In this document: piece by piece, positions 26,116 to 41,088 of the stretch
Numbering within the stretch: the first letter of the stretch is position 1
How the letters are laid out: each line of letters begins with the position of its first letter
From: Sinomicrobium sp.
GTDB taxonomy: Bacteria; Bacteroidota; Bacteroidia; Flavobacteriales; Flavobacteriaceae
DNA: 64,000 nucleotides
NCBI GenBank assembly: GCA_029266035.1
Contig: JAJUFH010000002.1
Coordinates: 1-64,000 of the forward strand
Direction of reading: 5' to 3'
The notes under the pieces: model-generated
Database searches by the model: none
What the model was told of the DNA's origin: nothing
The model's input: only the letters and a program-made list of their open reading frames with translations
Translations under genes and position numbers: made by a program

Positions 26116-27198
26116 TTACGCTTTTAATATTTTCTCTTGGTGATTGATAGACTCCTGGTGAATAGCCTTAAACATTTTTAAGATAAACTCTTCACTAAGT
26201 CCTTTTTCCTGACCTTCCAGTATCATTCTACCGAGTATTTCGTTCCATCTTTTATTCTGGAGTATCGCGACGTTTTTCTGTTTTTTGAGCTGACCGATTT
26301 CGTCGGATATTCTCATTCGCTTACCTATAGTCTCAATCAGTCCGTTATCTATCACGTCGATTTGCGCGCGCAGTGTTCCGAGTTTGCTGTTGTACTCCGC
26401 TTCGGCATCGCTTTCCTTTCGTATTTTGAGATCTTTCATAATCTGGATCAATACGTCGGGAGTTACTTGTTGAGCTGCATCGCTCCACGCATTATCCGGA
26501 TCGTCGTGAGTTTCTATCATCAGTCCGTCGAAATTCAGATCGAGAGCGGTTTGAGACACATCGAAAATCATATCTCTATTTCCGGTGATATGAGACGGAT
26601 CGCATATCAGAGGTAAGTCGGGGAATCTGCTCTGAAGTTCGATAGCTAGTTGCCACTCGGGTATATTGCGGTATTTGCTTTTTTCATAGGTGGAAAATCC
26701 GCGGTGGATGACACCGAGTTTTTTGATATCTGCAGTATACAGTCGTTCTATACCTCCCAGCCATAGAGACAGATCGGGGTTTACCGGGTTTTTGACTAGT
26801 ACTACCTTATCTGTTCCCTTCAGGGCATCGGCTATTTCCTGTACAATAAATGGGCTTACAGTAGATCGTGCTCCTATCCACAACAAGTCTATATCGTGTT
26901 CCAAAGCCAATTGTACATGAGCAGCATTGGCCACTTCGGTACCTACGAGCATTCCGGTTTCTTCCTTGGCTCTTTGCAACCATTTCAGTCCTAATGCACC
27001 TACACCTTCAAAATTTCCGGGACGGGTACGGGGTTTCCATATTCCTGCGCGGAGATAGGTTACATCGGTGTCTTTTAAGGCGTGTGCTATACGCAGTACT
27101 TGCTCTTCAGTTTCTGCACTACAGGGCCCTGCAATGACCAAGGGATGATCTAACCCCAGGTCGTTCAGCCACGTTCTCATCTCTTTCGAATTTTCCAT
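26116..27198 (-). CDS. Bifunctional DAHP synthase/chorismate mutase
   Basis: VIAGPCSAETEEQVLRIA, RAGIWKPRTRPGNFEGVG, DPSHITGNRD plus C-terminal AroQ-type CM domain (LRAQIDVIDNGLIETIGKRM). Confidence 0.95.
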   Translation of the reverse strand: MENSKEMRTWLNDLGLDHPLVIAGPCSAETEEQVLRIAHALKDTDVTYLRAGIWKPRTRPGNFEGVGALGLKWLQRAKEETGMLVGTEVANAAHVQLALEHDIDLLWIGARSTVSPFIVQEIADALKGTDKVVLVKNPVNPDLSLWLGGIERLYTADIKKLGVIHRGFSTYEKSKYRNIPEWQLAIELQSRFPDLPLICDPSHITGNRDMIFDVSQTALDLNFDGLMIETHDDPDNAWSDAAQQVTPDVLIQIMKDLKIRKESDAEAEYNSKLGTLRAQIDVIDNGLIETIGKRMRISDEIGQLKKQKNVAILQNKRWNEILGRMILEGQEKGLSEEFILKMFKAIHQESINHQEKILKA

Positions 27199-27226: not shown

Positions 27227-28099
27227 CTATTTTTTATCAGAGGCGGGAACGGATATTCCCTTTAATATTTCCTTAATTCTGTTGGTATTTTCCATCTCCT
27301 TAAAAATCCCTTCAAAATCACCTTCTTCCATCAGCGTTCTGAAGTGCTGTAGATTGGCTATATATTCGTCAAGGGTCTCCATAACATTAGCTTTGTTTTG
27401 CTCAAAAATGGGTGCCCACATAGCGGGAGAGCTTTTTGCCAATCTCACTGTACTCTCAAAACCACTCCCTGCCATGTCAAAAATATCACGTTCGTTCTTT
27501 TCTTTTTCGATAACGGTCTTTCCCAACATAAAAGAGCTGATATGTGACAAATGTGACACATAGGCTATATGTCGGTCGTGAGCTGCCGGATCCATATAAC
27601 GGATGCGCATTCCTATATCGGAAAAGAGTTTCAGTGCCCTTTCCTGTAGTTTGAATGCCGTTTTTTCTACCTCACAGATAATGTTTACCTTGTCTTTGTA
27701 CAATCCTCTCAACGCAGCCGAAGGTCCGGAAAATTCGGTACCCGCTATGGGGTGAGCCGCAAGAAAATTACGGCGTTTAGGATGTGAAGCCAGTGCTTCA
27801 CACACTTGCAACTTAGTTGAGCCCGCATCGCAAACCACAGCGTTGTCAGACACCCGGTCGAGGACCTCCTTAAGCAAGTCTATACTAGCGTTTACCGGCA
27901 CTGCGACTATAACCACATCTGCTTTATCCAAATCGTCTACAGTAGCTTTTTGGTCTATCAATCCCAATTCCAATGCCTGCTCCAGGTGATCTTCGTTACG
28001 GTCTATTCCGTACACTCTAGTCTCCTCACAAACTTCTCGGATATCCAGAGCAAAAGACCCTCCTATAAGCCCGAGTCCTATTACAAATACATTTGTCAT
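27227..28099 (-). CDS. tyrA: Prephenate dehydrogenase
   Basis: NVFVIGLGLIGGSFALDI; AAHPIAGTEFSGPSAA; DRHIAYVSHLSHISSFML. Confidence 0.93.
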   Translation of the reverse strand: MTNVFVIGLGLIGGSFALDIREVCEETRVYGIDRNEDHLEQALELGLIDQKATVDDLDKADVVIVAVPVNASIDLLKEVLDRVSDNAVVCDAGSTKLQVCEALASHPKRRNFLAAHPIAGTEFSGPSAALRGLYKDKVNIICEVEKTAFKLQERALKLFSDIGMRIRYMDPAAHDRHIAYVSHLSHISSFMLGKTVIEKEKNERDIFDMAGSGFESTVRLAKSSPAMWAPIFEQNKANVMETLDEYIANLQHFRTLMEEGDFEGIFKEMENTNRIKEILKGISVPASDKK

Positions 28100-28119: not shown

Positions 28120-29265
28120 TTACAACCTACTGATGGCTTCTTCTATTTTTTCTTCGGGAGTACACAGTGAAAAGCGTATATAACCCTGACCGTTTTTACC
28201 AAAAATAGTTCCCGGAGTAATAAAAATATGCTTGTCGTAAAGTATGCTGTCGATAAATTCTTCAGCCTCGCTAACTCCTTCGGGCAAACGCGCCCAGACA
28301 AACATTCCCACCGCGTCTTTGCTGTATGAACAGTCCAGTTTTTCAACCAGTTTGTATATGAGTTCTCTACGTTTGGCATACACGTCATTCATCTCTTTAT
28401 ACCAGTTGTCGGAACACTGTAATGCTGCAACAGCTCCCTTCTGTATACCGTAAAACATTCCGCTGTCCATATTGCTCTTTACTTTGAGCACTGCATCTAT
28501 ATGGTCTGCACTTCCCAGCACCATCCCCACACGCCATCCGGCCATATTAAAGGTCTTGCTCAGCGAATTCAACTCCATCGCCACTTCTTTGGCTCCATCT
28601 ACCTGTAGTATACTTCGAGGATTGTTGTTGAGCACAAAACTATACGGATTGTCGTTTACCAGCAATATATTGTTTCGCTTTGCAAAAGCCACCAATTTGT
28701 CGTAAAGCTCAGTGTTGCCATTTGTCCCTGTGGGCATATGTGGATAGTTGAGCCACATGAGTTTTACCCGAGAGAGGTCTGTGCTTTCCAGAGCATCCAA
28801 ATCGGGCAGCCACCCTTGGGCTTCCGTAAGATCGTAATACCTGGGTGTAGCACCTACCAACCGAGTTACCGAAGTATAAGTGGGATATCCCGGATCGGGA
28901 ATAAGCACCTCATCTCCTTCGTTCAGAAAAGCCAGTGAAATATGCATTATACCTTCCTTAGACCCCATAAGTGGCAGCACTTCTCGGTTGCTGTCCAGTG
29001 CTACTCCGAAATGCTTGCGGTAAAAACCGGCCATATTTTCGCGTAACTCAGGCAGTCCTTGATAGCTTTGATATTGATGCGCCATAGGGTCGCTCACCGA
29101 ATTTTTCAGGGCATCGATCACCTCTGGTGCAGGGTGGAGATCCGGACTTCCTATTCCCATATTAATCACAGGATTCCCCTCAGCTATCAGTTGTCGTACC
29201 TCGCGGAGTTTCCTAGAGAAGTAGTATTCTTCTACTGTATTTAGTCGTTGTGCAACTGCTATCAT
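28120..29265 (-). CDS. Class I/II pyridoxal-phosphate aminotransferase (probable aromatic pathway member)
   Basis: NMGIGSPDLHPAPEVIDAL; MWLNYPHMPTGT; SLSKTFNMAGWRVG; operon context. Confidence 0.9.
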   Translation of the reverse strand: MIAVAQRLNTVEEYYFSRKLREVRQLIAEGNPVINMGIGSPDLHPAPEVIDALKNSVSDPMAHQYQSYQGLPELRENMAGFYRKHFGVALDSNREVLPLMGSKEGIMHISLAFLNEGDEVLIPDPGYPTYTSVTRLVGATPRYYDLTEAQGWLPDLDALESTDLSRVKLMWLNYPHMPTGTNGNTELYDKLVAFAKRNNILLVNDNPYSFVLNNNPRSILQVDGAKEVAMELNSLSKTFNMAGWRVGMVLGSADHIDAVLKVKSNMDSGMFYGIQKGAVAALQCSDNWYKEMNDVYAKRRELIYKLVEKLDCSYSKDAVGMFVWARLPEGVSEAEEFIDSILYDKHIFITPGTIFGKNGQGYIRFSLCTPEEKIEEAISRL

Positions 29266-30089
29266 GATTTTGCATTTTTGTATTCTCCGAGTATCTTAAA
29301 CTCGTCTGTCATAATCCCGAGTAGTGATTTTGCTTTCTTAAAATCGTCGTATTTCTCAAAAGTCACATCTACAAAAAAGGAATATTTCCAGGGTGTTTCT
29401 ATAACGGGAAGGGATTGTATTTTGGTAAGGTTTAGTCGGCAATCGCTCATCACATTGAGCACCGTAGCCAGGCTTCCTCTTTTGTGTTCTGTCTTAAATT
29501 TTATCGAAGCCTTATTGATCTCCGCTTCGGGCAATACCGAGTTTTGTGTCTGTACGACGACAAAACGGGTGGAATTATCTTGAATGGTCTGAATATTTTC
29601 TGCCAGTATTTCCATATTGAAGAGTTCGGCAGCTGTTTTGCTGGCTATGGCTCCGATTGAAGTGATCTCGCCTTGGCGTATTCTCCGCGCTGTCTCAGCC
29701 GTATCGACATCTTCTACCAATTTGATATGGGGATACTCCCTAAAAAACTTCTTGCACTGCAACAAGGCCATAGGGTGTGAATGCACCTCTTTAATTTCGG
29801 CTATGCTTTGGCCGGGAAGAGCCATCAGATTGTGGTGTATGTTTACATAGTGTTCCCCTATGATGTGCAGGTTATTGTTGTCGATAAGAGCGTAATTGGG
29901 AATAATAGAACCCGCTATAGAATTCTCTATGGCCATAACAGCCACGTCTGAACTCTTGTCGAGCAGACAGTCTACCAGTTTGTCGAAAGAAAGACATTCG
30001 AGTACTTCTGTATTTCCACCGAAAAACTCTCTGGCTACCTGGTGATGAAAAGAACCCCTAACCCCTTGTATGGCTATCTTTCTTTTCAT
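29262..30089 (-). CDS. pheA: Prephenate dehydratase
   Basis: KIAIQGVRGSFHHQVAREFF; MAIENSIAGSIIPNYALI; NSTRFVVVQT; C-terminal ACT domain (RGSLATVLNVMSDCRLNLTKIQSLPV). Confidence 0.94.
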   Translation of the reverse strand: MKRKIAIQGVRGSFHHQVAREFFGGNTEVLECLSFDKLVDCLLDKSSDVAVMAIENSIAGSIIPNYALIDNNNLHIIGEHYVNIHHNLMALPGQSIAEIKEVHSHPMALLQCKKFFREYPHIKLVEDVDTAETARRIRQGEITSIGAIASKTAAELFNMEILAENIQTIQDNSTRFVVVQTQNSVLPEAEINKASIKFKTEHKRGSLATVLNVMSDCRLNLTKIQSLPVIETPWKYSFFVDVTFEKYDDFKKAKSLLGIMTDEFKILGEYKNAKS

Positions 30090-30132
30090 AGTGTTGCGAT
30101 TGGTTGCATCTTTACTGTTTTACTTTTTTCAC

Positions 30133-30159
30133 AAAAAAAAATCCCGGAATTTTCCGGGA
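30133..30159 (-). terminator. Attenuator terminator in the pheA leader
   Basis: Minus strand TCCCGGA-AAAT-TCCGGGA followed by nine T, located between the leader peptide ORF and the pheA start. Confidence 0.92.
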
Positions 30160-30190
30160 CTTGTTATCTATATATCATGCTCAAAATAGC

Positions 30191-30268
30191 CTATAACTGT
30201 CCCGTTCTTCCTTTAAAAAAATAAAAGAAGAAAAAATAAAAGTTCCAGTTATAAACAGTTTGAGTCAT
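30191..30268 (-). CDS. Phe/Tyr-rich leader peptide of the aromatic operon attenuator (25 aa)
   Basis: ATG ACT CAA ACT GTT TAT AAC TGG AAC TTT TAT TTT TTC TTC TTT TAT TTT TTT AAA GGA AGA ACG GGA CAG TTA TAG = MTQTVYNWNFYFFFFYFFKGRTGQL*. Below the ORF-track length cutoff. Confidence 0.9.
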   Translation of the reverse strand: MTQTVYNWNFYFFFFYFFKGRTGQL

Positions 30269-30290
30269 TCGTTCATTCTATTTGACGCTG

Positions 30291-30320
30291 CTAAAGTAAT
30301 TATAAATATGAAACGGACAA
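30291..30320 (-). promoter_or_regulatory. Predicted promoter for the pheA leader transcript (TTG-N19-TACTTTAG)
   Basis: Minus-strand TTG (30318-30320), 19-nt spacer, TACTTTAG (30291-30298); one mismatch to TAnnTTTG. Confidence 0.6.
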
Positions 30321-30494
30321 GTGATTGGTGATATTTTTTTTGTTTTTTCACAAAAAGATCAATTCACATCCTTATTTCCGTCTGTTTACCACACTTATTT
30401 GGCTGTAATCAGTCCCGTTTATTATAGCCGAGACGACTAGTATCATCGTTTCCAGTGTTTTTTAAAGGACAAACTCCTCAGCTATTTGCAGTTC

Positions 30495-31190
30495 TCATTC
30501 TTTCTTTTCCCGAAACGAGATTTGGGTCAAGCCGTCTTCAGAAGCAAATGTTTTGTAATAAGCACTCAGCTCTTTTGCTTTCACTTCTATGGTTTGCTCT
30601 TCAAAATCACTGCTGTTCATCTGTTCGATAGGGCGTGCCGTTTTGCTCATTTCAATACTTTTTGCCAGATGGTAGGTATCACCATCTATGCTGACTACTT
30701 TAAAACAACCAAATTCTCCTTGCATTCCTAGCGGATTTCCCTTTTCTTTATAAACTTCTATACGTCCGAGGTAGATATCACCTGGGTGTAGCTGCGTCAA
30801 TTCGGCACGTCGTTTTTCGTGTTGCTCTGTCCGTTCGGGCGCTGCGACTAGTCCGTCATAAGCGAGGTAACCAAACAGCACTAATGCACCGAGAAGAAAA
30901 ATCCAACCGACAACTGTAAGTCTAAACACGGATTTTTGAAGTGGAATCTGCTCCAGCTCCCTTTGTGCAAAGGTTTTCATCGGTTCGGTCCACTTCCGTC
31001 TGGGCACTGTTTTCCCTGTAGCGGTCTCTATATATCGAAAATACACCCTTTTGTTTTTTGTCACAAAAAAGGCTGTACTCGTCTCTCGCTGAAAAAGGTC
31101 GAGCAGCATATGATTACCTGGGTTCTCAAGATTTTCCAGGTTATTGGCATCGACTCGCTTTACACTGATATCTGTTATTCTTATCCACAT
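30495..31190 (-). CDS. Hypothetical protein with one central TM segment
   Basis: Long ORF with hydrophobic stretch FRLTVVGWIFLLGALVLFGYLAY; no recognised family. Confidence 0.7.
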   Translation of the reverse strand: MWIRITDISVKRVDANNLENLENPGNHMLLDLFQRETSTAFFVTKNKRVYFRYIETATGKTVPRRKWTEPMKTFAQRELEQIPLQKSVFRLTVVGWIFLLGALVLFGYLAYDGLVAAPERTEQHEKRRAELTQLHPGDIYLGRIEVYKEKGNPLGMQGEFGCFKVVSIDGDTYHLAKSIEMSKTARPIEQMNSSDFEEQTIEVKAKELSAYYKTFASEDGLTQISFREKKE

Positions 31191-35992: not shown

Positions 35993-36946
35993 TTAAAATA
36001 CTGCCGAGGCTACAGCTTTGACATTATCCGATTTTCCCATAGAATAATAATGCAGTACCGGAACACCGGCCTCTTTTAGTTCCTTAGATTGTTGTATACA
36101 CCATTCTACTCCAACCTGCCTTACATCCTTATTGTTCTTACACTGTTCTACAGCCTTGATAAGGTCTTCAGGCATATCGATTTTGAACACCTGTGGCAAG
36201 AGTTGGAGATGCCTTGCCACCGCTATGGGCTTAAGTCCGGGAATAATTGGAACATCTATCCCCATGGCTCTGGCTCTTTCTACAAACTCGAAGAACTTCT
36301 TATTGTCAAAAAACATTTGAGTCACTACATAATCAGCTCCTGCATCTACTTTGTCTTGTAGTCTTTTAAGATCGTATTCCAGCGAAGGAGCCTCCAAATG
36401 TTTTTCGGGATAGCCTGCCACACCAACACAAAAATCGGGCTTGTTAACGGCCTCTACTGTGTCGTGCAAATATTTCCCTCGGGTAATATCTTTTATCTGA
36501 CTGACCAGTTCGTTGGCATAGGTATGTCCACCCTGTGTAGGTTCGAAATAACGCTGGTGTTTCATAGCATCGCCGCGCAGTGCCATAACATTTTCTATAC
36601 CGAGATAATGGCAATCTACCAGCATATACTCTGTCTCTTCTCTGGTAAACCCACCACATAAAACATGAGGTACCGTGTCTACCTGATACTTGTGTTTTAT
36701 CGATGCACATATCCCAACTGTTCCGGGACGCATACGCACTATTCTTCGATCTAGAAGACCTTCCTTTTCTATGTACACAAACTCTTCTCTCGAGGTAGTG
36801 ACATCTATAAAGGGTGGTTTGAACTCCATCAGAGGATCTATATTATCGTAGAGGTCCTGTATATTTTTTCCTTTCTGAGGCGGAACTACTTCAAAGGAAA
36901 ACAGGGTTTTTCCTTTGGCATTTTCTATGTGTTCTGTAACTTTCAT
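35993..36946 (-). CDS. metF: Methylenetetrahydrofolate reductase
   Basis: FSFEVVPPQKGKNIQDLY; GADYVVTQMFFDNKKFFEFV; IPGLKPI. Confidence 0.95.
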   Translation of the reverse strand: MKVTEHIENAKGKTLFSFEVVPPQKGKNIQDLYDNIDPLMEFKPPFIDVTTSREEFVYIEKEGLLDRRIVRMRPGTVGICASIKHKYQVDTVPHVLCGGFTREETEYMLVDCHYLGIENVMALRGDAMKHQRYFEPTQGGHTYANELVSQIKDITRGKYLHDTVEAVNKPDFCVGVAGYPEKHLEAPSLEYDLKRLQDKVDAGADYVVTQMFFDNKKFFEFVERARAMGIDVPIIPGLKPIAVARHLQLLPQVFKIDMPEDLIKAVEQCKNNKDVRQVGVEWCIQQSKELKEAGVPVLHYYSMGKSDNVKAVASAVF

Positions 36947-36997: not shown

Positions 36998-39739
36998 TTA
37001 ATCAGCTATGTTTGGGTTCAGCCATTTCTTGGCTTCCTCTTCAGAAATACCCCTTCTGACAGCATAATCGGCTACTTGGTCTTCCTTAATTTTTCCAAGG
37101 CCGAAGTACTTGCTTTCGGGATGGCCGAAATAATATCCCGAAACCGAAGAGGCCGGCCACATGGCGAGGCTTTCGGTGAGTTGAATACCCGAGTTTTTCT
37201 CTACGTCAAGTAGACTCCATATTGTTTTTTTCTCCAAGTGATCTGGACAGGAGGGATATCCCGGGGCGGGTCTTATCCCTTTGTACGATTCCTTTATGAG
37301 CTCTTCGTTGTCTAAGGCCTCATCTACGGCGTACCCCCAGTATTCTTTTCTTACTTTCTCGTGTAGGTATTCAGCAAAAGCCTCGGCAAAACGATCGGCC
37401 AGAGCTTTTATCATTATAGAGTTGTAGTCGTCGTTATTTTTTTGAAATTCGGCTGCTCTCTCCTCTACTCCAAAGCCTGCAGAGACAGCAAACGCCCCTA
37501 CATAATCAGTAACACCTCCACTTTTTGGAGCGACAAAATCGGCGAGAGCGATATTGGCAGCTCGTTTGTTCTTTTTGGACTGTTGCCGCAGGGTGAGAAA
37601 ACTAGTTATCTGTTTTCCACTCTCATCGTAAATCGCGATATCGTCTTCATCTATCTGATTGGCCGCAAAAATTCCATACACCCCTTTTGCTTGTAGCCAT
37701 TCCTCCTCGATGAGCTGATTCAACATCGTATTCGCCTCTTCAAACAACAAGCTAGCCTGCTCACCCACTACCTCATCGGTGAGTATGGCAGGGTATTTAC
37801 CGTGCAACTGCCAAGTTCTGAAAAACGGAGTCCAGTCGATATAATCTAACAGTTCTTCCGGTTTTACACTTACCTGATACACTCCGAGCTTGTTTGGCTT
37901 GAAAGGTGTATACCCTTCCCAATCCAACTGCAACTTATTGTTTCGAGCTTCTTCTATGGTCAGATATTCCTTTACCTTAGAACGGTTTAGAAATCCTTCT
38001 CTCAATTTGTCGTACTCTTCCCTTACGGAACGGCAATATTCAACCTTTGTCTTTTCGTTGAGCAGGTTACTAGCTACTGTAACAGCACGGGAAGCGTCGT
38101 TTACGTGAACTACGGTTTCCCTATAGGCAGGGGCAATCTTTACCGCGGTATGTGCCCGCGAAGTTGTCGCTCCACCTATCAGTACGGGAATATTGATATT
38201 GAGTTTGTCCAGCTCTTGTGCCAGATATACCATTTCGTCTAAGGAAGGGGTTATCAATCCACTTAGCCCTATTATATCTACTTTTTCGTCTAAGGCAGTT
38301 TGTATTATTTTTTCTGGAGGTACCATCACCCCAAGGTCCACTACCTCGTAGTTATTACAGCCCAGCACTACGCTCACGATATTTTTTCCTATATCGTGTA
38401 CATCTCCTTTTACAGTAGCCATCAACACCTTTCCGGCTGCTTGAGAACTACCTTCTCCAGCCGGAAATTTTTTCTTTTCTTCTTCGATAAAGGGCAGTAG
38501 ATAGGCCACTGCCTTTTTCATAACCCTAGCCGATTTTACTACCTGGGGCAAGAACATCTTTCCACTTCCAAACAGATCACCAACTACATTCATCCCGTTC
38601 ATCAGATGGGTTTCAATAACCTCTATGGGTTTGCTAACCTGCAAACGGGCTTCTTCTACATCCTCTTCTATAAATTCGTCAATACCCTTTACCAGTGCGT
38701 GGGTGATGCGTTGCTGCAAATCTTCTGCACGCCACTCCTGCGTTTTTTTGTCTCCCGACTTTTCACCTTCTTTTACCTGTTCTGCATAGTCTAACAGGCG
38801 TTCGGTAGCATCGTCTCTCCTATCGAGCAATACGTCTTCTATATAAGTGAGTAGTTCTTTTGGTATCTCGTCGTATACCTCCAGCATTTCGGGGTTTACA
38901 ATTCCCATATTCATACCGTGCTGTATAGCGTGGTACAAAAACGCGGCGTTCATAGCCTCTCGCACTGCGTTATTCCCTCTGAAGGAAAAGGACACATTAC
39001 TCACCCCTCCACTCACATTGGCGTAAGGCAGATTTTCTCTGATCCACTGTGTAGCTCTGAAGAAATCGACCGCATTCTTGCGATGCTCTTCCATTCCGGT
39101 ACCCACGGGGAAAATATTAGGGTCGAAAATAATGTCTTCCGGTGCAAATCCCACCTTGTTTACGAGTATATCGTAAGAGCGTTTACAAATCTCTATCCTC
39201 CGTTCGTAATTATCGGCCTGTCCTACCTCGTCGAATGCCATGACAATTACCGCGGCCCCGTATCGCATAATGGTCTTTGCGTGATGAATAAAAACATCTT
39301 CTCCCTCTTTAAGGCTGATGGAATTAACAATACACTTTCCCTGCACTACCTTGAGTCCGGCTTCGATAATTTCCCATTTAGAACTATCTATCATCAAGGG
39401 TACTCTGGCGATATCGGGTTCTGAAGCGATAAGATTGAGGAAAGTGGTCATAGCCTGCACTCCATCGATCATTCCCTCGTCCATATTAACGTCTATCACC
39501 TGGGCTCCTCCCTCTACCTGTGCTCGTGCTACGTTTAGTGCTTCCTCATATTTCTCTTCCTTAACAAGTCTCAAAAATTTTCGCGATCCGGTGACATTGG
39601 TACGCTCTCCTATATTTATAAAATTGCTCTCGGGGGTAACGATCAGCGGTTCCAATCCCGACAACTTTAGGGGTCGGATTGGCAGATCAGATCGTTTTCC
39701 CGTCAATTTATCTTCTGCTCTGTTGTTGATATTGTCCAT
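36998..39739 (-). CDS. metH: Methionine synthase, C-terminal part (folate-, B12- and SAM-activation domains)
   Basis: [47 protein letters not shown]; activation domain [12 protein letters not shown]. Confidence 0.95.
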
Positions 39740-39794: not shown

Positions 39795-40799
39795 TTACAA
39801 AACCGAGGTCTTGAGTTTTCGCGGTTCGTAAGCTGCTGCAACCTCTGCGATGAGTCTGATGTGTTCTGGAGTAGTACCACAGCACCCTCCTATTATATTC
39901 ACCAGATGTTCCTCGAGGTAATCTTTTATCAACATCTGCATCTCCTCGGGAGTCTGATCGTATTCCCCAAAGGCATTGGGTAGTCCGGCATTGGGATGCG
40001 CAGAAACATTCAGCTCCGTTTGCAGTCCCAATCGCTTTAGATAAGGTTTTAGCAAATCGGCTCCAAGAGCACAATTAAACCCTACACTGAGTAAGGGAAT
40101 ATGTGAAATAGAAATCAGGAAAGCCTCCACGGTCTGCCCAGACAGTGTTCTCCCGGAGGCATCTGTAATCGTACCACTCACCATAACCGCAATATCTATA
40201 TTGCGTTCTTCTTTTACCTCTTCTATAGCAAACAGAGCTGCTTTGGCATTGAGGGTATCGAAAACAGTTTCTACAAGCAGTATGTCCACTCCCCCGTCTA
40301 TCAACGCCTCCGCCTGCTGCTTATAGGCCGTTCTGAGTTGGTCGAAAGTAATAGCTCTATAGCCGGGATCGTTGACATCGGGCGACATACTCGCTGTTTT
40401 GTTGGTAGGTCCCATTGCTCCGGCTACAAATCGAGGCTTCTCGGGATTCTTTGCGGTAAAGCTGTCGGCTACCTCTCGTGCAATCCGCGCCGATTCGTAG
40501 TTGAGCTCATAGACCAAATCTTCCATATGGTAATCGGCCATGGCTATGGTAGTACTGGAAAAGGTATTGGTCTCTACGATATCTGCTCCCACTTCAAAAT
40601 ACTTTGAGTGTATTTCGGCTATAGCCTGTGGTTGTGTAAGAGACAACAGGTCGTTATTCCCTTTCAAAGGGTAGTTGTAATCCTTAAAACGCTCGCCCCT
40701 GAAGTCTTCTTCCGAAAACCGGTATTGTTGAAGCATGGTTCCCATGGCTCCGTCAAGTACCAGAATCCGCTTGGCGAGCTCTGCCTTTAATTTGCTCAT
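39795..40799 (-). CDS. Methionine synthase, homocysteine-binding domain as separate protein
   Basis: RILVLDGAMGTMLQQYRFSEEDFRG; IVETNTFSSTTIAMADY; NIIGGCCGTTPEHI zinc motif. Confidence 0.94.
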   Translation of the reverse strand: MSKLKAELAKRILVLDGAMGTMLQQYRFSEEDFRGERFKDYNYPLKGNNDLLSLTQPQAIAEIHSKYFEVGADIVETNTFSSTTIAMADYHMEDLVYELNYESARIAREVADSFTAKNPEKPRFVAGAMGPTNKTASMSPDVNDPGYRAITFDQLRTAYKQQAEALIDGGVDILLVETVFDTLNAKAALFAIEEVKEERNIDIAVMVSGTITDASGRTLSGQTVEAFLISISHIPLLSVGFNCALGADLLKPYLKRLGLQTELNVSAHPNAGLPNAFGEYDQTPEEMQMLIKDYLEEHLVNIIGGCCGTTPEHIRLIAEVAAAYEPRKLKTSVL

Positions 40800-40911
40800 A
40801 ACTCGATTTTTAATCTTTATCCCGACCATATAGTAATACTATTCAGCCCGGACAAAAACCGTTAAAATTATAAGTTATCAGAATGCAGGGAAAAATACAT
40901 GAAGTATCCTC

Positions 40912-41017
40912 GTCATCTGTCCCTGAATTCAGGGTAGAATTTAGCACCTTCTCCGCTTCAGGCTCGGAGGGTTGCTAAGGCGTCAACGGGTCTATTCCCT
41001 CTGCCTTTCTTGATAAC
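40912..41017 (-). ncRNA. SAM-I (S-box) riboswitch upstream of metH-metH-metF
   Basis: Minus strand GTTATCAAGAAAGGCAGAGGGAATAGACCCGTTGACGCCTTAGCAACCC...GAGAAGGTGCTAAATTCTACCC...GGGACAGATGAC: canonical S-box core, P1 GUUAUC/GAUGAC. Confidence 0.95.
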
Positions 41018-41088
41018 TGCAATAAAACTGATGCAAAGAAATACAATACCTTTTTCTTTTGCAAACTAATTGCTGTTTTTCTCATAAA

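Follow-up and report, generated by a model that had tools for sequence, protein, structure and literature searches.

The operon of pheA, an aminotransferase gene, tyrA and a DAHP synthase gene in the 64,000-nucleotide stretch of DNA analysed here (the window) is, to judge from its sequence and from comparison with related loci, very probably controlled by a ribosome-mediated transcription attenuator that couples its expression to charged tRNA-Phe and tRNA-Tyr. The contig belongs to a 3.05-Mb draft genome that we assign to Sinomicrobium (Flavobacteriaceae), because the nearest named relatives, whose PheA proteins are 82 to 90% identical, are Sinomicrobium spp. On the minus strand, the gene order is pheA, aminotransferase, tyrA, DAHP synthase-chorismate mutase and rsgA; pheA begins with an ATG at 30089, the aminotransferase gene overlaps it by 4 nt, and the family assignments support the statement of the first-pass annotation that the products of this operon are Phe and Tyr. 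The elements of the proposed attenuator and the genes behind it are the following:

30318 to 30320, minus strand: TTG, -33 element of the leader promoter (direct reading)
30291 to 30298, minus strand: TACTTTAG, -7 element of the leader promoter, consensus TAnnTTTG (direct reading)
30191 to 30268, minus strand: leader peptide ORF MTQTVYNWNFYFFFFYFFKGRTGQL, including the stop codon TAG (direct reading; conserved in 100 of 102 pheA loci)
30246 to 30253, minus strand: segment 1, core UAUAACUG, leader codons 6 to 8 (base-paired to segment 2 in the predicted fold)
30215 to 30241, minus strand: putative stall region, leader codons 10 to 18, nine consecutive Phe/Tyr codons (direct reading)
30192 to 30204, minus strand: segment 2, CGGGACAGUUAUA, last leader codons (complementary to segments 1 and 3)
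30155 to 30167, minus strand: segment 3, AUAACAAGUCCCG, partner of segment 2 (antiterminator) or segment 4 (terminator) (direct reading and comparison)
30133 to 30162, minus strand: intrinsic terminator (3:4), stem AAGUCCCGGA/UCCGGGAUUU plus nine U (reading, terminator scan and fold)
29262 to 30089, minus strand: pheA, prephenate dehydratase (ncbifam NF008865, E 1e-57, below the curated cut-off; PF00800, over the cut-off)
28120 to 29265, minus strand: PLP-dependent aminotransferase (ncbifam aminotransferase families, best E 1.3e-126, none over the cut-off)
27227 to 28099, minus strand: tyrA, prephenate dehydrogenase (NF006307, 398 bits, over the cut-off)
26116 to 27198, minus strand: DAHP synthase/chorismate mutase fusion (NF006421, NF009239 and chorismate mutase models, below the curated cut-offs)

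The pheA leader was the sole match when both strands of the 64-kb window were scanned for short ATG ORFs enriched in a single amino-acid class with a terminator behind them. Its ORF comprises 25 codons, with the ATG at 30268 and the stop codon ending at 30191, and contains the uninterrupted run of nine Phe/Tyr codons that had been described from the sequence; indeed, every element and position in the first-pass annotation proved correct to the base when the minus strand was read directly. Three pairings had been proposed. Pairing 1:2 joins TATAACTG (30253 to 30246) with CAGTTATA (30199 to 30192), pairing 2:3 joins CGGGACAGTTAT (30204 to 30193) with ATAACAAGTCCCG (30167 to 30155), and pairing 3:4 is the terminator stem (30162 to 30139; 5' arm AAGTCCCGGA, loop AAAT), with nine T at 30141 to 30133, all on the minus strand; the terminator was also found independently by a terminator scan. 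The pairings are mutually exclusive (2:3 against 1:2 and 3:4), and the minimum-energy structure of the window leader contains 1:2 together with 3:4. From leader to terminator, the RNA folds at -45.3 kcal/mol, compared with -24.8 +/- 3.0 kcal/mol for shuffles (z -6.9). Elsewhere in the window, a SAM riboswitch (RF00162, 79 bits; 40910 to 41019, minus strand) precedes a split methionine synthase operon, in which the homocysteine methyltransferase part (39795 to 40829), the cobalamin part (36998 to 39739) and a metF-like gene (35993 to 36946) are named from their translations only.

The TTG and TACTTTAG elements are separated by a spacer of 19 nt, as in the promoter first claimed for this site, and are of the Bacteroidetes type. 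Scored for a TTG lying 17 to 23 nt (mostly 18 to 19) before TAnnTTTG or TAnnTTAG, 71 of 100 leaders reached 7 to 8 of 8, against about 13 per 100 in shuffles, and in most relatives the -7 motif is found 10 to 24 nt 5' of the leader ATG. ATG is the start codon of all leaders; among the 100 loci, A occurs at -3 in 76% and at -6 in 61%, and Shine-Dalgarno-like motifs before the leader start were seen in 2. Ribosome profiling of F. johnsoniae has likewise revealed a preference for A at -3 and no use of the Shine-Dalgarno sequence (PMC6847099), so that leader starts of this kind are as expected for such ribosomes. A 3-codon ORF, ATGAACGAATGA (30265 to 30276, minus strand), overlaps the leader start in the window and is absent from other Sinomicrobium sequences.

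The comparison was based on 102 pheA upstream regions, 99 from Flavobacteriaceae (by PheA similarity) and three from other Bacteroidia, with one genome counted twice (L002 and L031). The best short ORF held at least five Phe or Tyr codons in nine in 100 of these regions. At least six were present in 99, compared with about 2.6 per 102 in dinucleotide shuffles, and at least seven in 73, compared with 0.2 per 102; at least eight were found in 22 real regions and in no shuffle (dinucleotide, 10 per region). In each of the 100 loci that have a leader, a terminator-like hairpin with a U run lies 3' of the ORF, usually starting about 20 to 45 nt past the leader stop. The aromatic windows of the 100 loci contain 703 TTY or TAY codons and zero TTR, a result partly favoured by the choice of these windows for their F/Y content, and C stands at 35% of third positions and at 1 to 2% of first and second positions. 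The variation between T and C at the third base and the lack of TTR indicate that Phe/Tyr coding is kept, beyond mere U-richness. Two Flavobacteriaceae pheA loci (L084 and L101) are without an aromatic leader, possibly through loss or because pheA has been relocated.

The pairings are conserved as well. A MAFFT alignment of 49 leaders misaligned segment 2 between the two main versions and was discarded in favour of fixed stop-codon offsets: segment 2 was placed at a constant distance from the stop, its class being set by the peptide tail alone, and segment 3 was taken from the terminator alone. Counted in this way, 2:3, the second of the pairings proposed from the sequence, is formed in 85% of cells at the fixed offset and in 29 to 42% when slid by 1 to 3 nt. 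The version CGGGAC/GUCCCG goes with peptide ends like RGTGLL and the version CGAGAC/GUCUCG with ends like RNETLYV; CGGGAU/AUCCCG and others are minor versions. At the third core pair, G-C is found in 39 loci and A-U in 43, and segments 2 and 3 pair at -14.0 kcal/mol with their own partners versus -11.1 kcal/mol when partners are swapped among loci. The covariation of 2:3 is real but narrow, formally resting on few columns, because double changes occur at only two of the six core pairs, the remaining four hardly varying and having no double change. In the terminator core, 99.8% of cells are paired and five of six pairs show double changes. The conservation of an aromatic ORF with covarying stems across Flavobacteriaceae, suggested at first pass as a check, is therefore present, with this narrowness in 2:3.

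The features by which a leader-peptide attenuator is recognized are accordingly found together: (i) a short leader ORF in which codons for the amino acids that the operon produces are abundant, (ii) an intrinsic terminator between the leader and the first gene, (iii) a mutually exclusive 2:3 antiterminator overlapping the end of the leader, and (iv), not uniformly, a 1:2 protector pairing (mean z -2.4; z < -2 in 66 of 100 loci). Leader translation might instead control pheA post-transcriptionally, through re-initiation, mRNA stability or Rho, the hairpin serving mainly to end transcripts of the upstream gene. That gene (30495 to 31190) lies 5' of the leader on the same strand as pheA, and a terminator scan of 29800 to 30800 found no second minus-strand terminator between it and pheA, as such an arrangement would have it. 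However, the leader owns a conserved promoter-like motif, and segment 2, which would be needless under this scheme, has a conserved and co-changing pairing with segment 3; furthermore, the distance from the leader stop to pheA, about 55 to 160 nt in most relatives, is too great for close translational coupling. We thus regard post-transcriptional control as very improbable.

The geometry of a stalled ribosome is consistent with attenuation of transcription. The transcript was folded as far as the terminator loop while the ribosome footprint was masked, in an equilibrium model with an assumed footprint and no kinetics. The mean occupancy of 2:3 was 0.48 when no ribosome was present, rose to 0.71 for a mid-run stall and dropped to 0.03 once the ribosome had reached the stop. 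In a scan of stall positions along the ORF, with codons counted back from the stop, 2:3 held at about 0.7 as far as codon -11 and was down to 0.1 by codon -8; in the 100 loci, the frequency of F/Y is 0.80 to 0.96 at codons -14 to -10 and declines after -8, which indicates that the stall codons end where the footprint arrives at segment 2 and stalling would cease to be useful. In the window's own RNA, 2:3 is at 0.69 for stalls up to codon 13 and at 0.24 or less for later ones. Antitermination is predicted to be favoured by stalls at Tyr6 and at Phe10 to Phe13, codons 14 to 18 being poor, and stalls late in the run favour 1:2 too. The original proposal that a stall in the run brings about antitermination is therefore upheld by masked folding up to codon 13 and only poorly for codons 14 to 18; in the window's species, efficient antitermination is predicted for the early aromatic codons only.

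The ORF, the promoter-like motif, the segments and the terminator can be read directly, and their conservation, positions and co-change follow from comparison; from them we infer the following course of events. Transcription would start just past TACTTTAG, and the leader AUG would be initiated by a ribosome without a Shine-Dalgarno sequence. With ample Phe and Tyr, the ribosome would reach the stop and cover segment 2, allowing the 3:4 terminator to form. When Phe or Tyr is scarce, a stall in the aromatic run would mask or block segment 1 and leave segment 2 free to pair with nascent segment 3, and RNA polymerase would continue into pheA. If the leader were not translated, 1:2 would form and termination would be favoured. 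This course would require the first ribosome to stay close enough to RNA polymerase in Bacteroidia.

A riboswitch or T-box-like RNA acting by direct binding of an amino acid, tRNA or protein, with the ORF incidental, is a slightly poorer candidate even than post-transcriptional control. A strongly structured leader RNA that ends in a terminator would suit it, as would the presence of riboswitches (SAM) in this genome, but the leader has no Rfam aptamer or T-box match (weak leader families only, E 0.2 to 0.6), its conserved primary feature is a set of Phe/Tyr codons varying at the third base with no aptamer core, and the position of the run fits the geometry of a ribosome. Both the riboswitch and the T-box readings were rejected, the curated aptamer and T-box models being unmatched.

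Outside Flavobacteriaceae, a leader with at least six F/Y in nine codons precedes pheA at 17 of 27 Bacteroidia loci, in 12 families; behind it, 15 of these 17 have a terminator, and 14 have a 2:3 pairing with z <= -1.9. None of 22 phylum-level prephenate dehydratase loci (21 from other classes, the last from a different family within the window's order) has an aromatic leader. At the level of sequence, these counts show that the leader type is kept across much of the class Bacteroidia. The notion of a chance U-rich stretch ahead of an ordinary terminator, without a regulatory role, draws on the A+T-richness of the region and on the occurrence of six F/Y in nine codons in about 2% of shuffled regions, and is virtually eliminated by conservation in 100 loci and 12 further families and by the strict use of TTY/TAY. 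Two loci of another Bacteroidia family (L123 and L126, family f33) have 8 to 9 F/Y in nine codons and no U-run terminator by a simple scan, and perhaps use another mode of control.

Further attenuators were sought in the same genome before hisG, before ilvD and with the Rfam model RF01692. A Bacteroid-trp element with the leader MNNSLNNIWWWSNLRRQVVS precedes a trpE-like gene on the same contig (84513 to 84637), about 20 kb past the end of the window. On another contig, near its start (L132, 312 to 368), a His-rich leader, MNISVLHHHHFYTCTQAR, is followed by a GC-rich hairpin and a T run before hisG and is likely a histidine attenuator. Ahead of ilvD on a third contig (L141, minus strand; about 360 nt from the ilvD match), an Ile/Val-rich frame that starts with GTG, VIQYSIIIVIVVVDLFSG, and a strong 16-bp terminator likely make up a branched-chain attenuator whose start is not ATG. 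Leader-peptide attenuation seems to be in general use among the amino-acid operons of this genome, and we count the trp, his and ilv leaders, each rich in its own amino acids, in favour of attenuation at pheA. A genome search for GTCYCG...CGRGACTTTT returned only an unrelated intergenic hairpin without a leader.

Attenuators were reportedly the subject of a comparative survey by Lopatovskaya et al. in 2010. Like the window's leader, the E. coli pheL-pheA and pheST leaders and the Rfam family Phe_leader (RF01859) combine an aromatic-rich peptide, 1:2, 2:3 and 3:4 pairings and an intrinsic terminator, with pheA downstream; the window leader scores 21.2 bits with RF01859, below the gathering score of 55. 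It differs from the proteobacterial Phe attenuators in that (i) its run has Tyr besides Phe, (ii) its promoter is of the TTG-N19-TAnnTTTG type and its start sites lack a Shine-Dalgarno sequence, and (iii) its operon also makes Tyr and the first enzyme of the common pathway. Bacteroid-trp, an Rfam family since 2010, is likewise a Bacteroidetes element before an amino-acid operon, but one with Trp codons and trp genes, and its model, RF01692, did not match the pheA leader region even when E values up to 1 were allowed.

The novelty in Bacteroidetes that was first attributed to the pheA attenuator was too strong a claim, given Bacteroid-trp and a report from 2021 (PMC9723704). The latter describes a structured 5' element without an Rfam match before pheA of Flavobacterium psychrophilum, common to other genera of Flavobacteriaceae and hence at the same gene and in the same bacterial family as the window's leader, and speaks of 'strong clues' that amino-acid operons in general are under leader-peptide attenuation; for pheA, its main text sets out neither an anatomy nor a peptide or pairing scheme, and it reports no range past the family. 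Short ORFs reminiscent of attenuators have been noted in the 5' UTRs of B. thetaiotaomicron (PMC7366714), and we found little else on leader-peptide attenuation in the phylum beyond these two papers and PMC2864571. The attenuator is thus of a classical type and its novelty is limited; what is new is the full anatomy, the codon-level evidence and tests, and the class-wide range.

To conclude, we consider it likely that the pheA leader is an ancestral, class-wide Phe/Tyr attenuator of Bacteroidia, standing outside the proteobacterial Phe_leader family and operated by ribosomes that do not use Shine-Dalgarno sequences, the conservation of which would imply that the first ribosome paces RNA polymerase in this class. 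A textbook control circuit would thereby be extended to a class with a different translation start, in which ribosome-polymerase coupling has been little studied, and such a widely conserved attenuator would offer a ready natural reporter for the coupling question in F. johnsoniae or Bacteroides. It would also allow a leader peptide to be annotated consistently ahead of pheA in many genomes, and is a candidate for a new Rfam family.
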